A stretch of 64,000 bases of DNA from Candidatus Krumholzibacteriota bacterium (GTDB lineage Bacteria > Krumholzibacteriota > Krumholzibacteriia > Krumholzibacteriales > WJIX01): the NCBI GenBank assembly GCA_034520215.1, contig JAXHNR010000001.1:1230560-1294559 (forward strand), given 5' to 3'. The position numbers were made by a program, and so were the translations under genes. Numbering within the stretch: the first letter of the stretch is position 1; the number at the start of each line of letters is the position of its first letter. Below are positions 28,601-58,176 of this stretch, in pieces. The notes under the pieces are model-generated. The model saw nothing but the letters and a program-made list of their open reading frames with translations. It did not search any database and was not told the origin of the DNA.

Positions 28601-28911
28601 TGGAGTTTCCCCAATTTTTATAACCTATAAGGTAGTCGATGATTTGTAATAGTATGCGGATGGTTGATATTTTCAAAATCGTTGTCGATTTCTCGCCGGC
28701 CGAGGAAACCGCTGGCTCTCCCGCCTCGGGCTCGCTCTTTCTGCCCCTTCGGGTCAGAAATCCTTGCCCGCTCACCACTCGGCGAGGGTTTTGAAAATGT
28801 CAACCATCCGCACTCATCAGCAATGAAAACCCTATTCCACTTACCAATCCTGATAACTTATTGTATCTCGCAATGTTAGTAAAATACTTGCCGGATTCTT
28901 GAAATCTATTA
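28601..28911 (+). mobile_element. structured MITE-like element, copy B1
   Basis: A 311-base non-coding copy starting TGGAGTTTCCCCAATTTTTA. The outer stem pairs GCGGATGGTTGA (28655-28666) with TCAACCATCCGC, and continues as TTTTCAAAA/TTTTGAAAA. Inside are CGATTTC/GGAAACCG, a TTTCTG/CAGAAA hairpin with a TTC turn, and CTCG/CGAG. It shares CTCGCTCTTTC and TGCCCGCTC blocks with family A. The flanks (28589-28600 and 28912-28923) agree at only 8 of 12 bases, so this copy looks older. Reading frames through it on both strands are not credible genes. Confidence 0.7.
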
Positions 28912-52117: not shown

Positions 52118-54073
<1,956 letters not shown>

Positions 54074-54478: not shown

Positions 54479-55636
54479 TTAAATGTCGTAACATCCTATC
54501 TTCCGGGAAATAACAAGACGTTGAATCTCGGACGTTCCCTCTCCTATAGTTAGAAGTTTGTAGTCCCTGTAAAACCTCTCTATATCGTACTCTTTCATCA
54601 AACCATAACCGCCAAATATCTGAACCGCATTGTCTACCACTCTTCCCATCACTTCCGAACAATACAGTTTTGACATCGCGGCTTGTTTATTAAACGGTTT
54701 TCCGGCGTCCTTCAATTTACAGGTTTTGTAGAGTAAACTCCTTGCGGCTTCTATCTCCATTGCCATATCGGCCAGTTTAAAAGAATTTGCTTCGAATGTT
54801 GAAATGGGTCTGCCGAACTGCTCACGATTCTTGGCGTATTTTAGCGCCAGCTCAAAAGCCCCTTGCGCTCCTCCCAATCCCATAGCAGCAATTGCTATTC
54901 TTCCATTGTCAAGAGTTTCAAGCATCTGGTGGAAACCCTCTCCCTTCTTTCCAAGGAGATTTTCCTCTGGTACCCTGCAGTCATCGAAAAAAAGCTCCCC
55001 GGTGTTCGAAGCTCTCCACATCATCTTTCCCGTCATCTTTTTTGCTATAAACCCGTCAGTTCCATTTGGAACAAGTATACAGGACATCTCTTTCTTACCG
55101 TCGGGACGCTCGCCGGTAACAGCCTGAACGACACATACTCCGGACATATCGGTTGCAGAGTTAGTAATAAATATCTTGCTTCCATTTAGAACCCACATTC
55201 CATCATATAATTCTGCGGTAGTGTTGCTTGCTCCGGCATCCGAACCGGCATCAGGTTCTGTAAGACCGAAGGAGGCAAGCATCTCGCCGCCGCAAAGACG
55301 CGGAAGCCACTCTTGCTTCTGTTTTTCACTTCCGTAATAATATATAGGACCTACACCAAGAGAATTTCCCGCGGCTACTGTCGCCGATTGTGAAGCGTCA
55401 ATTCTCGCGAGTTCTTCAACAACAATACAGTAAGATAGATACCCCATCTCCGAACCGCCGTATTTCTCTGGTATTATTATACCGAAAAGCCCCATTTCAG
55501 CCATCTGCTTTGTCAATTCAGCGGAAAACTCTTCGTTTTCGTCAAGCTCCTGAGCTCTCGGCGCGATTTCGTTCTCAGCGAAACTCCTTACACTATCTCT
55601 TAATACTCTCTGTTCTTCTGATAGGCCGTAATTGAT
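54479..55636 (-). CDS. acyl-CoA dehydrogenase, apparent ATC start
   Basis: A flavoprotein that introduces a 2,3-double bond into acyl-CoA and passes electrons to ETF. Family motifs are SFGLTEPDAGSDAGA, ITNSATDMSGVCVV, REQFGRPISTFEANSFKLADM and the C-terminal QIFGGYGLMKEYDIERFYRD followed by EGTSEIQR. The in-frame homologous N-terminus (NYGLSEEQRVLRDSVRSFAE) extends 40 codons upstream of the first TTG, to an ATC at 55634-55636 that follows GGAGG by six bases. An in-frame TAA lies just upstream, and no ATG, GTG or TTG intervenes. The full protein would be 385 residues, normal for the family. Confidence 0.9.
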   Translation of the reverse strand: MNYGLSEEQRVLRDSVRSFAENEIAPRAQELDENEEFSAELTKQMAEMGLFGIIIPEKYGGSEMGYLSYCIVVEELARIDASQSATVAAGNSLGVGPIYYYGSEKQKQEWLPRLCGGEMLASFGLTEPDAGSDAGASNTTAELYDGMWVLNGSKIFITNSATDMSGVCVVQAVTGERPDGKKEMSCILVPNGTDGFIAKKMTGKMMWRASNTGELFFDDCRVPEENLLGKKGEGFHQMLETLDNGRIAIAAMGLGGAQGAFELALKYAKNREQFGRPISTFEANSFKLADMAMEIEAARSLLYKTCKLKDAGKPFNKQAAMSKLYCSEVMGRVVDNAVQIFGGYGLMKEYDIERFYRDYKLLTIGEGTSEIQRLVISRKIGCYDI

Positions 55637-55674: not shown

Positions 55675-56265
55675 CTAGAAACTGAAACCCTCGGGTAATT
55701 CTCCTTTTTTCGTTCCATCCGGAACCCAGGAAAGGTCAAGGATCGTACTGGTCGGATACTTCGTGCGGAATATCGGTATAACTTTCATTCCTATCTCCGG
55801 TTCTCCAAGCGATAGATAGCTCATAAGAATCGTGTCAACATCATCAAATTCTATATTCACGAACTTAATAGGCTTATCTAGAATATTGAAAGCCCCCGCT
55901 CTCTCACATACCATAAATGTATGTACTTTCGCTGTCTCTTTGGCCTGTTCAGTCATATCAAAGACCGTATTCTTACCGAGACAATCGGGACAGTGTATCC
56001 TGAACGGCTGATAAACAGTACCCTTGAACTGGCAATCAGGATTATCACAACGCGTTGCAAGCAATTTACCTTCGCCTAATGCTTCAAAAAAAGGCGCTTC
56101 ACTTCCGTAGCTGTGAATATATGTCATATCGCGGGGATTGGTAACTCCCATTAATTTCCAACCCTCATCCGCGTTGCGGATAGGGATATTGGGAGTCAAA
56201 TTATGAAAATCACCTTTTAATTTGTATTTGCCATCCTTTACAAACACCTGTCCAAACATGCTCAT
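55675..56265 (-). CDS. DUF35 zinc-ribbon/OB-fold protein (thiolase partner)
   Basis: A 196-residue protein of the DUF35 type, small proteins that bind acyl-CoA through an OB fold and form complexes with thiolase-like partners. It has a rubredoxin-like zinc ribbon (CDNPDC and CPDC, about residues 74-100) and an OB-fold region ending EIGMKVIPIFRTKYP. It lies 20 bases after the thiolase-like gene. The N-terminal ~65 residues are longer than in minimal DUF35 proteins. ATG at 56265 behind GGAGAG. Confidence 0.87.
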   Translation of the reverse strand: MSMFGQVFVKDGKYKLKGDFHNLTPNIPIRNADEGWKLMGVTNPRDMTYIHSYGSEAPFFEALGEGKLLATRCDNPDCQFKGTVYQPFRIHCPDCLGKNTVFDMTEQAKETAKVHTFMVCERAGAFNILDKPIKFVNIEFDDVDTILMSYLSLGEPEIGMKVIPIFRTKYPTSTILDLSWVPDGTKKGELPEGFSF

Positions 56266-56285
56266 TTTACTCTCCTTTACGCGTC

Positions 56286-57713
56286 TTACTTCAATAAATG
56301 ATCAGGGTCCATTAAGATCGTAGCTGTTACTTGCGAACCAACGCCGGCATGGCTGATAGCCATTCCCCGCTTTGCTCCCTTTACTTGAAGGTCTGTCCAA
56401 TCGGACGGTTTTTCCCTGCCGAATTCCTTCCACCTCTTTTGGTCGCCATGAATCTCCGCCCATCTATCCCATATATGGGTGGCTACTTCAAAGGCCTGCA
56501 TGATACCTGTGGCGCCCACGGCGTGCATACACCCTATCAAGCCTCCCGAAAGATTGGATGGAAGCTTGCCGGGTTTCCCGGTTTTTGGATTAGTGTGATA
56601 GCAATCCCCCGACTCAACGTAATCTCTTCCCTCTCCATAGGGACGAATTCCAATATCTTCGTATGTCTGTACATCGCTGATAGTAAAAGCGTCGTGCAAT
56701 TCCAGAAGATCCAGATCTTCTCTCGGATCAGTAATTCCAGCCATACGGTAACCGTACCAGGTAGCCATTCTGGCGGCCAGAAATCCAGTAAATCCCGGAT
56801 ATCTATCCCCGCCGGGAAATCTTTCACCCAGGTTCTTATACTGATCAGCCGATTCATGCGGAAGCAGCGGTATATCCATATCTCGCCTGTCCGCGGGTCT
56901 TAAAGTATGAGAACCGGCTCCGACCCATATCCTCACGGCCTTATGTGATGAATTTTCAGTAAGTATTTCGGCGGTTTTTTCATCACAGATAACAACACAC
57001 GCCGCCCCAACACTCATAAGGCAGCAGTCAAGAGCCCTTAGCGGATAAGCGATAACAGGTGAATTAAGAACATCTTCAACTGTAATCTTTTTAGGTGAAT
57101 GCGCGAATGGATTCATTCTAGCGTACCCGTGATGTTTTACAGAGATCTCTGCCAGTGTTTCCCTGAAAGATTTCTCCGCCTTACCGAATATCTGCCAGTA
57201 CCTCTGTGCCATTACCGCGTAATAACCCGTATAGATATGTCCAAGGGGTGATTCCCAGTCTTTATCGGCGGCGCAGGAGATTAGGAAATTCCCCTCATCA
57301 GTCGGAACCTCATCCATCCTTTCCCAACCCATTGCCAGAGAACAGTCGGAATAACCGGAAGCCACGGCTTTTACTGCTTCCCATATCGTTGAACCTCCGG
57401 TAGCGCCTCCGGTTTTGACACCAATATTTCCAAGCGGGTCAAGACCGAGCCTGTCATGAATAACCGCTTCACCAAGAAGCTGATCACCGAAATGATCGGC
57501 GAAATGACCATAATAAGCAGTGTGTATAAAACTCTTAAGTTCAGCCGCTGACATATTCAAGAGATCCGCGGCCATTGTCAGGGCATCAACACATAGCTCT
57601 TCTGTTCGCTTCTCTGGTATGGCTCGATCGAACTTTGACTGACCGCCCGTTACCATATAAACCGGCCTCATAAGCTCCGGCACCTTTAATTGCTGTTTAC
57701 TGAATTTGATCAT
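56286..57713 (-). CDS. thiolase-superfamily protein (SCP2-type) lacking the canonical Cys
   Basis: A 475-residue thiolase-fold enzyme, longer than usual thiolases (about 390). It would act on an acyl-CoA with its DUF35 partner. The segment where thiolases carry the nucleophilic Cys (CASG) reads VKTGGATGGST near residues 99-109, with no Cys. The C-terminal second Cys region reads SHAGVGSQ. HDAF (near 345) and HAVGATG (near 400) retain the other active-site elements. It may therefore be a retro-aldolase like the Ltp2/ChsH2 type, or a non-classical thiolase. ATG at 57713 behind GGGGAGGAG. Confidence 0.82.
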   Translation of the reverse strand: MIKFSKQQLKVPELMRPVYMVTGGQSKFDRAIPEKRTEELCVDALTMAADLLNMSAAELKSFIHTAYYGHFADHFGDQLLGEAVIHDRLGLDPLGNIGVKTGGATGGSTIWEAVKAVASGYSDCSLAMGWERMDEVPTDEGNFLISCAADKDWESPLGHIYTGYYAVMAQRYWQIFGKAEKSFRETLAEISVKHHGYARMNPFAHSPKKITVEDVLNSPVIAYPLRALDCCLMSVGAACVVICDEKTAEILTENSSHKAVRIWVGAGSHTLRPADRRDMDIPLLPHESADQYKNLGERFPGGDRYPGFTGFLAARMATWYGYRMAGITDPREDLDLLELHDAFTISDVQTYEDIGIRPYGEGRDYVESGDCYHTNPKTGKPGKLPSNLSGGLIGCMHAVGATGIMQAFEVATHIWDRWAEIHGDQKRWKEFGREKPSDWTDLQVKGAKRGMAISHAGVGSQVTATILMDPDHLLK

Positions 57714-57867: not shown

Positions 57868-58176
57868 TTGGAGTTTCCCCAATTTTTATAACCTATAAGT
57901 TAGTCGATGATTTGTAACAGTATGCGGCTGATTGATATTTTCAAAATCGTTGTCGGTTTCCCCGGCGAGGAAACCGCTGGCTCTGCGCCTCGGGCTCGCT
58001 CTTTCTGCCCCTTCGGGCCAGAAATCCTTGCCCGCTCGCCCTCCGGAGGGTTTTGAAAATATCAAACAGCCGCACTCATCAGCAATGAAAGCCCTATTCC
58101 ACTTACCAATCCTGATAACTGATTGTATCTCGAAAAGTTATTACAATACTTGCCGGATTTTCAGAGGGAACTACAC
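57868..58176 (+). mobile_element. structured MITE-like element, copy B2
   Basis: A 309-base non-coding copy starting TTGGAGTTTCCCCAATTTTTA and ending GGGAACTACAC. Exact 12-bp direct repeats ATAATACAGTGA flank it at 57856-57867 and 58177-58188. The outer stem pairs GCGGCTGATTGATATTTTC with its near-perfect inverse ending at about 58072. Inside are GGTTTCC/GGAAACC, TTTCTG/CAGAAA and CCCTCC/GGAGGG hairpins. Most stem differences from B1 are matched on the opposite arm. It lies upstream of the thiolase-like gene. Confidence 0.85.

Follow-up and report, generated by a model that had tools for sequence, protein, structure and literature searches.

A cysteine-less thiolase-like protein with a DUF35 partner, a candidate thiolase-fold lyase of branched acyl-CoA breakdown

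The 64,000-nucleotide stretch of DNA analyzed here (the window), from a Candidatus Krumholzibacteriota bacterium, carries on its minus strand a gene for a thiolase-like protein of 475 aa (56286-57713) and, directly after it, one for a protein of 196 aa (55675-56265), a pair which a preliminary description, made from the sequence alone, had put forward as thiolase-like and DUF35 proteins. As also described there, an acyl-CoA dehydrogenase gene adjoins the pair on the same strand (54479-55636); its product is SCAD-like, with a Glu base (IGEGTSE), and its probable start is an ATC (55636-55634) a few bases after a GGAGG. This apparent non-AUG start is conserved, as ATC in close relatives (loci L014, L015, L016 and L018) and as ATT in L020. 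The convergent neighbor on the plus strand encodes an acetoacetyl-CoA synthetase (AACS) of 651 aa (52118-54073; 958.5 bits, cut-off 639). Upstream of the thiolase-like gene lies an element of ∼150 bp (57923-58074) with 24-nt inverted arms and a GC-rich core, of which the window holds a second copy (28657-28810); an arm-like match is found elsewhere in the same genome (L143:9009).

The Pfam scores of the 196-aa protein are low (18.1 and 17.9 bits for zf-ChsH2 and OB_ChsH2_C, below the cut-offs), yet its DUF35 identity is secured, because four Cys residues (Cys73, 78, 92 and 95) are all invariant and its structural model is confident (pLDDT 87), with significant PDB matches to DUF35 proteins only. 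The pairing proposed earlier thus holds, and the neighbor is a true zinc-ribbon/OB (DUF35) protein. Wherever both genes were called, the DUF35 gene comes next on the same strand (62 of 62 loci).

The thiolase-like protein matches over its full length the family NF004982 (PRK06365, "thiolase domain-containing protein"), whose name assigns no function, at 679.5 bits, slightly below the cut-off of 695 that 7 of the 12 hits in its own phylum exceed; the BbsB model gives it 131 bits against a cut-off of 750. A direct protein search of the window's genome returned no other relatives at E ≤ 0.01, and our literature search found no published work on the function of the family. One scan of 84,980 species yielded 162 coding places, the best 80 of which were kept. 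These best 80 of 162 share 77-91% identity along almost their entire length and belong to Krumholzibacteriota/Latescibacterota, Spirochaetes, Desulfobacterota, Actinobacteria, Planctomycetes, Marinimicrobia and Lokiarchaea; within the window's own phylum, a member or divergent relative was found in 12 of 80 genomes. Such identity across phyla rules out chance, and across domains it suggests strong constraint combined with horizontal transfer.

In HMMER alignments, Gly103 of the motif KTGGATGG stands opposite the catalytic Cys of four thiolases of solved structure (7yvy, 6esq, 7pxp BbsB and 6hsj), and a separate multiple alignment gives the same result, bearing out the earlier remark that GGATGG stands in place of the CASG nucleophile. 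The HDAF (His340) and HAVGATG (His397) motifs are retained, as had been stated. The second, C-terminal Cys is absent too, but less weight can be given to this than the preliminary description gave it. SCP2-type thiolases use the Cys of HDCF instead of the C-terminal CxG Cys (see also PMC12329534), and therefore the key absence is that of the HDCF Cys, opposite which the HMMER alignments place Ala342. Across 72 aligned family members, G102, G103, A104, T105, G106, H340 and A342 are invariant, as is the segment YYGHFADHFGDQLLGE, and H397 is kept in 71. No conserved Cys occurs at any known catalytic position in these 72 sequences; the presence of one had been named beforehand among the observations that would refute the aldolase idea. 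At residue 461, the window protein has Gln where 71 of the 72 aligned sequences have His within SHAGVGSH, either a real change or a sequencing error.

The protein thus has the thiolase fold and neither the nucleophilic Cys nor the HDCF Cys of SCP2-type thiolases. With Cys absent at both known catalytic positions, it is very unlikely that the protein performs thiolysis in the normal way, and judged by these residues the family is not a canonical thiolase, despite being annotated as one. An unusual thiolase could in principle employ another nucleophile such as Cys395 or Cys231, in line with a fold and nearest relatives that are those of thiolases, with the retention of both thiolase His residues, and with the conservation of the two Cys (C231 in 72/72, C395 in 69/72). 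Yet C395, which lies near H397, gives way to Asn in three members and, in the divergent L013, to Thr; the counterpart of C231 in BbsB and the zebrafish SCP2 thiolase is a Cys present in addition to their nucleophile; and G103 is invariant. We regard such a thiolase as improbable. A non-catalytic scaffold or substrate binder for the neighboring enzymes seems more improbable still: DUF35 proteins do hold together multienzyme complexes in archaea and in PhlABC (PMC12329534), but the invariant His340, the nearly invariant His397 and the invariant segment given above look like a selected active site.

An AlphaFold2 model of the thiolase-like protein (pTM 0.81, mean pLDDT 69.6, active-site loops of low confidence) retrieved 6esq as its best Foldseek match (E 1.3e-21), with 6esq, BbsB and 7yvy ranking first and the proven aldolases Sal and Ltp2 after them. 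The best match is an archaeal acetoacetyl-CoA thiolase that also works with a DUF35 protein, but its Cys residues in CASG and HDCF are both gone from the window family. The benzoylsuccinyl-CoA thiolase BbsAB (7pxp) shares the HDAF motif, a His at the GHP position and a DUF35-type partner; BbsB, a proven thiolase with HDAF, nevertheless keeps the nucleophilic Cys where the window family has G103. In a phylogenetic tree comprising Ltp2-like proteins (those matching NF005892; Sal was not among the sequences) and four PDB references entered as the segments printed by HMMER rather than as whole chains, the Ltp2-like proteins form a separate clade (support 100/100) that does not include the window family. 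The latter (100/99) joins two divergent relatives and a second Cys-less group (STGGATG), and the reference branch nearest to this Cys-less assemblage is that of the archaeal acetoacetyl-CoA thiolases (6esq, 7yvy), although the deeper joins are only moderately supported and involve long branches. The loss of Cys in the window family thus looks separate from that in Ltp2, as far as moderately supported, long deep branches allow. The tree placement suggested in the preliminary description came out differently from its Ltp2 analogy, with the family in a Cys-less group of its own beside archaeal acetoacetyl-CoA thiolases. The second Cys-less group (STGGATG, HDAF) comes from Smithella and Lokiarchaea and has a DUF35-like partner gene (L079:583-1779, and the minus-strand thl2 genes of L081 and L084).

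The analogy with the steroid aldolase Ltp2-ChsH2(DUF35) (6ok1) stands in part. Both systems share the thiolase fold, a DUF35 partner and a Gly at the nucleophile position, since position 103 is Gly in the Ltp2-like proteins of the alignment as well. However, the catalytic residues of Ltp2, Tyr294 (in YDHF) and Tyr344 (PMC12329534), correspond to His340 and His397, the two sites are 57 residues apart instead of 50 in Ltp2, and the DUF35 gene of the window is missing the MaoC hydratase domain of the Ltp2-ChsH2 system. With both Tyr replaced by His and a separate clade in the tree, membership of the Ltp2 type was rejected; the Ltp2 catalytic residues whose presence had been proposed as a check are not those found. 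The bile acid aldolase Sal-Shy(DUF35) (9myr) likewise shares the fold, a DUF35 partner and the Gly at the nucleophile position (PMC12329534), whose backbone amide is proposed, for Sal as for Ltp2, to contact the hydroxyl of the substrate (PMC12329534). Its catalytic dyad Tyr302/Cys304 (PMC12329534) is matched by His340/Ala342 and its third site, Gln352, by His397. The missing Tyr residues of Ltp2 and Sal would count against reading the protein as an aldolase.

Gene neighborhoods were compared over 81 loci, with gene counts that are lower bounds, since in GC-rich loci some genes are masked by long antisense ORFs. An XRE-cupin regulator is present in at least 33 of these loci, AACS in at least 19 (window included), a CoA-transferase pair in at least 4, and an isovaleryl-CoA dehydrogenase (IVD)-type dehydrogenase in at least 11, in 8 of them together with AACS. 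AACS is kept beside the pair within the taxonomic order to which the window belongs, and in Desulfobacterota it is part of the same gene run; within the phylum its co-occurrence is only modest (9/10 versus 36/70, Fisher p = 0.037, uncorrected for relatedness). The dehydrogenase slot is filled by two kinds of enzymes, an IVD type (IGAGTSE plus the helix-G Glu) in 11 loci and a SCAD-like Glu type elsewhere, window included. The cassette dehydrogenase of Desulfopila aestuarii scores 600 bits against the bacterial IVD 4o5m and 532 against human IVD, the next other kind reaching 325, and is by these scores a true isovaleryl-CoA dehydrogenase. For the window's own dehydrogenase an IVD assignment was rejected, with its SCAD-type Glu and no close IVD homolog found in the genome. 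Individual loci add further genes: two acyl-CoA carboxylase-like (carboxyltransferase) genes and an IVD beside the pair with a hydratase after DUF35 (L031), a hydratase directly upstream (L093), and a run of dehydrogenase, canonical thiolase, the pair, a ligase and a hydratase, followed at a distance of a few kb by EtfBA-like genes (L053). The ligase of L053 was rejected as an AACS, being a divergent relative only (257 bits versus the cut-off of 639). A Spirochaete run (L057:4368-12094) combines a beta-keto acid cleavage enzyme, a CoA-transferase pair, a metallo-beta-lactamase fold, the thiolase-like/DUF35 pair and an aldehyde:ferredoxin oxidoreductase. A regular-expression motif scan of the loci examined found no 3-hydroxyacyl-CoA dehydrogenase near the pair. 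The expected context of a dehydrogenase and, in some loci, a hydratase is thus recovered, and the neighborhoods suggest that branched-chain acyl-CoAs are broken down to acetoacetate; the operons indicate short branched acyl-CoAs rather than steroids.

The same context bears on another use of the enolate chemistry, by a Cys-free acyl-CoA decarboxylase or an aldol-forming, synthetic enzyme. Thiolase-fold proteins lacking the nucleophile can decarboxylate, as TbSLP does slowly with malonyl-CoA, and a retro-aldol reaction is reversible in principle; but Sal does not decarboxylate malonyl-CoA (PMC12329534 for both proteins), and the gene runs with dehydrogenase, hydratase, CoA-activating and Etf-like genes are those of catabolism. 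We consider this improbable.

None of the 12 own-phylum carriers, the window's genome among them, has a canonical HMG-CoA lyase, and 13 of 18 other carriers lack it as well, although it is also missing from most non-carriers of the phylum. The window's genome showed no methylcrotonyl-CoA carboxylase, its single carboxyltransferase being mmdA-like and situated beside methylmalonyl-CoA mutase; a supply of HMG-CoA by a methylcrotonyl-CoA carboxylase was accordingly rejected for that genome. The same region holds a crotonase, a 3-hydroxybutyryl-CoA dehydrogenase-like gene and a canonical thiolase, so that the hydratase gene sought on the basis of the earlier description is indeed present. From the PF01039 listing and gene context, no methylcrotonyl-CoA carboxylase was seen either in Desulfopila IMCC35008 (a record titled complete chromosome), IMCC35006 and strain BRH_c16a, all of which keep an IVD in the cassette; the two mmdA-like genes of IMCC35008 lie, as judged from context, beside propionate-metabolism genes. 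In the genomes G081 and G085 none was seen, the carboxyltransferases there being PCC-like, mmdA-like or low-scoring; for G081, G082 and G085 the PCC- or mmdA-like assignment relies on gene context and PF01039 scores, and the two compared individually are mmdA-like by families (L097) and PCC by solved structures (L149). In five carriers PF01039 matched nothing. The carboxyltransferases of L031 were rejected as proof of a methylcrotonyl-CoA carboxylase, PCC structures outscoring MCC ones for the one compared and both genes matching only mmdA in NCBIfam. The acetone carboxylase gamma subunit is absent from the window's genome and was found in 2 of 28 carriers, in one of them weakly. Desulfopila aestuarii (L147, G080 C65) has a classical-looking leucine operon which, read from gene order, comprises an IVD-like dehydrogenase, MCC-like carboxylase subunits, a hydratase and HMG-CoA lyase, and carries elsewhere the cassette with its own IVD.

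From the missing Cys, the site residues, the DUF35 partner and the neighborhoods we infer a reaction, a substrate and roles for the two His residues. We propose, with a probability of roughly one half, that the pair is a thiolase-fold lyase whose substrate is a branched (tertiary) 3-hydroxyacyl-CoA, cleaved in retro-aldol fashion during catabolism of the isovaleryl-CoA/leucine type. The acyl-CoA dehydrogenase would form an enoyl-CoA, which a hydratase would convert to the 3-hydroxyacyl-CoA; the thiolase-like enzyme would hold the thioester in the thiolase oxyanion hole, on the His340 side, and bind the 3-hydroxyl through the Gly103 backbone, as proposed for Sal and Ltp2. His397 and/or His340, replacing the Tyr pair, might then accept the proton of the hydroxyl group and protonate the enolate, with acetyl-CoA and a ketone as products. 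A retro-aldol step appears the simplest account because one gene run begins with IVD and ends with AACS, has a thiolase fold devoid of the Cys in the middle, and offers no dehydrogenase that would oxidize the hydroxyl group. For the window itself the argument is indirect, as the dehydrogenase there is of another type than IVD.

The leading candidate substrate would be HMG-CoA, giving acetoacetate to be re-activated by the neighboring AACS or CoA-transferase, a reaction analogous to that of HMG-CoA lyase (PRK05692/NF004283), which has an unrelated fold and is not homologous. The second candidate, 3-hydroxyisovaleryl-CoA, would yield acetone. HMG-CoA fits the theme of acetoacetate and 3-hydroxyisovaleryl-CoA the missing carboxylase: that no methylcrotonyl-CoA carboxylase was seen speaks against the former, while the missing acetone carboxylase gamma subunit and an AACS left unexplained count against the acetone route. 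Retro-aldol cleavage of an unbranched or 2-methyl 3-hydroxyacyl-CoA, for instance of 2-methyl-3-hydroxybutyryl-CoA to acetaldehyde and propionyl-CoA with the window's SCAD-like dehydrogenase as the first step, would suit the SCAD/SBCAD-type Glu base (IGEGTSE) of that enzyme, the aldehyde:ferredoxin oxidoreductase near the pair in some Spirochaetes loci and the methylmalonyl-CoA mutase cluster of the window's genome. It too would leave AACS unexplained, and IVD types fill the same slot in Desulfobacterota, the thiolase-like protein being 83% identical between the two backgrounds and the dehydrogenases 38%; we hold it to be unlikely, if the least so of the alternatives to the branched-substrate lyase.

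A fuller version of the branched-substrate proposal is more tentative, at clearly less than even odds: a further, independently derived retro-aldolase of the thiolase superfamily, with a His/His pair in place of the Tyr pair, may provide a leucine/isovalerate route that dispenses with canonical HMG-CoA lyase, and even with carboxylation (3-hydroxyisovaleryl-CoA to acetone and acetyl-CoA) where no methylcrotonyl-CoA carboxylase was found, and may have spread horizontally among anaerobic bacteria and Asgard archaea. The family that databases name a thiolase occurs in many uncultured anaerobes and is devoid of the defining thiolase residue. Should it be a lyase, a carbon-carbon cleavage step is misplaced in metabolic models of the organisms that carry it, and a testable route would be at hand for genomes that have isovaleryl-CoA dehydrogenase but yielded neither a methylcrotonyl-CoA carboxylase nor an HMG-CoA lyase. 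The thiolase fold would then have given rise to aldolase chemistry on more than one occasion, using differing sets of catalytic residues.
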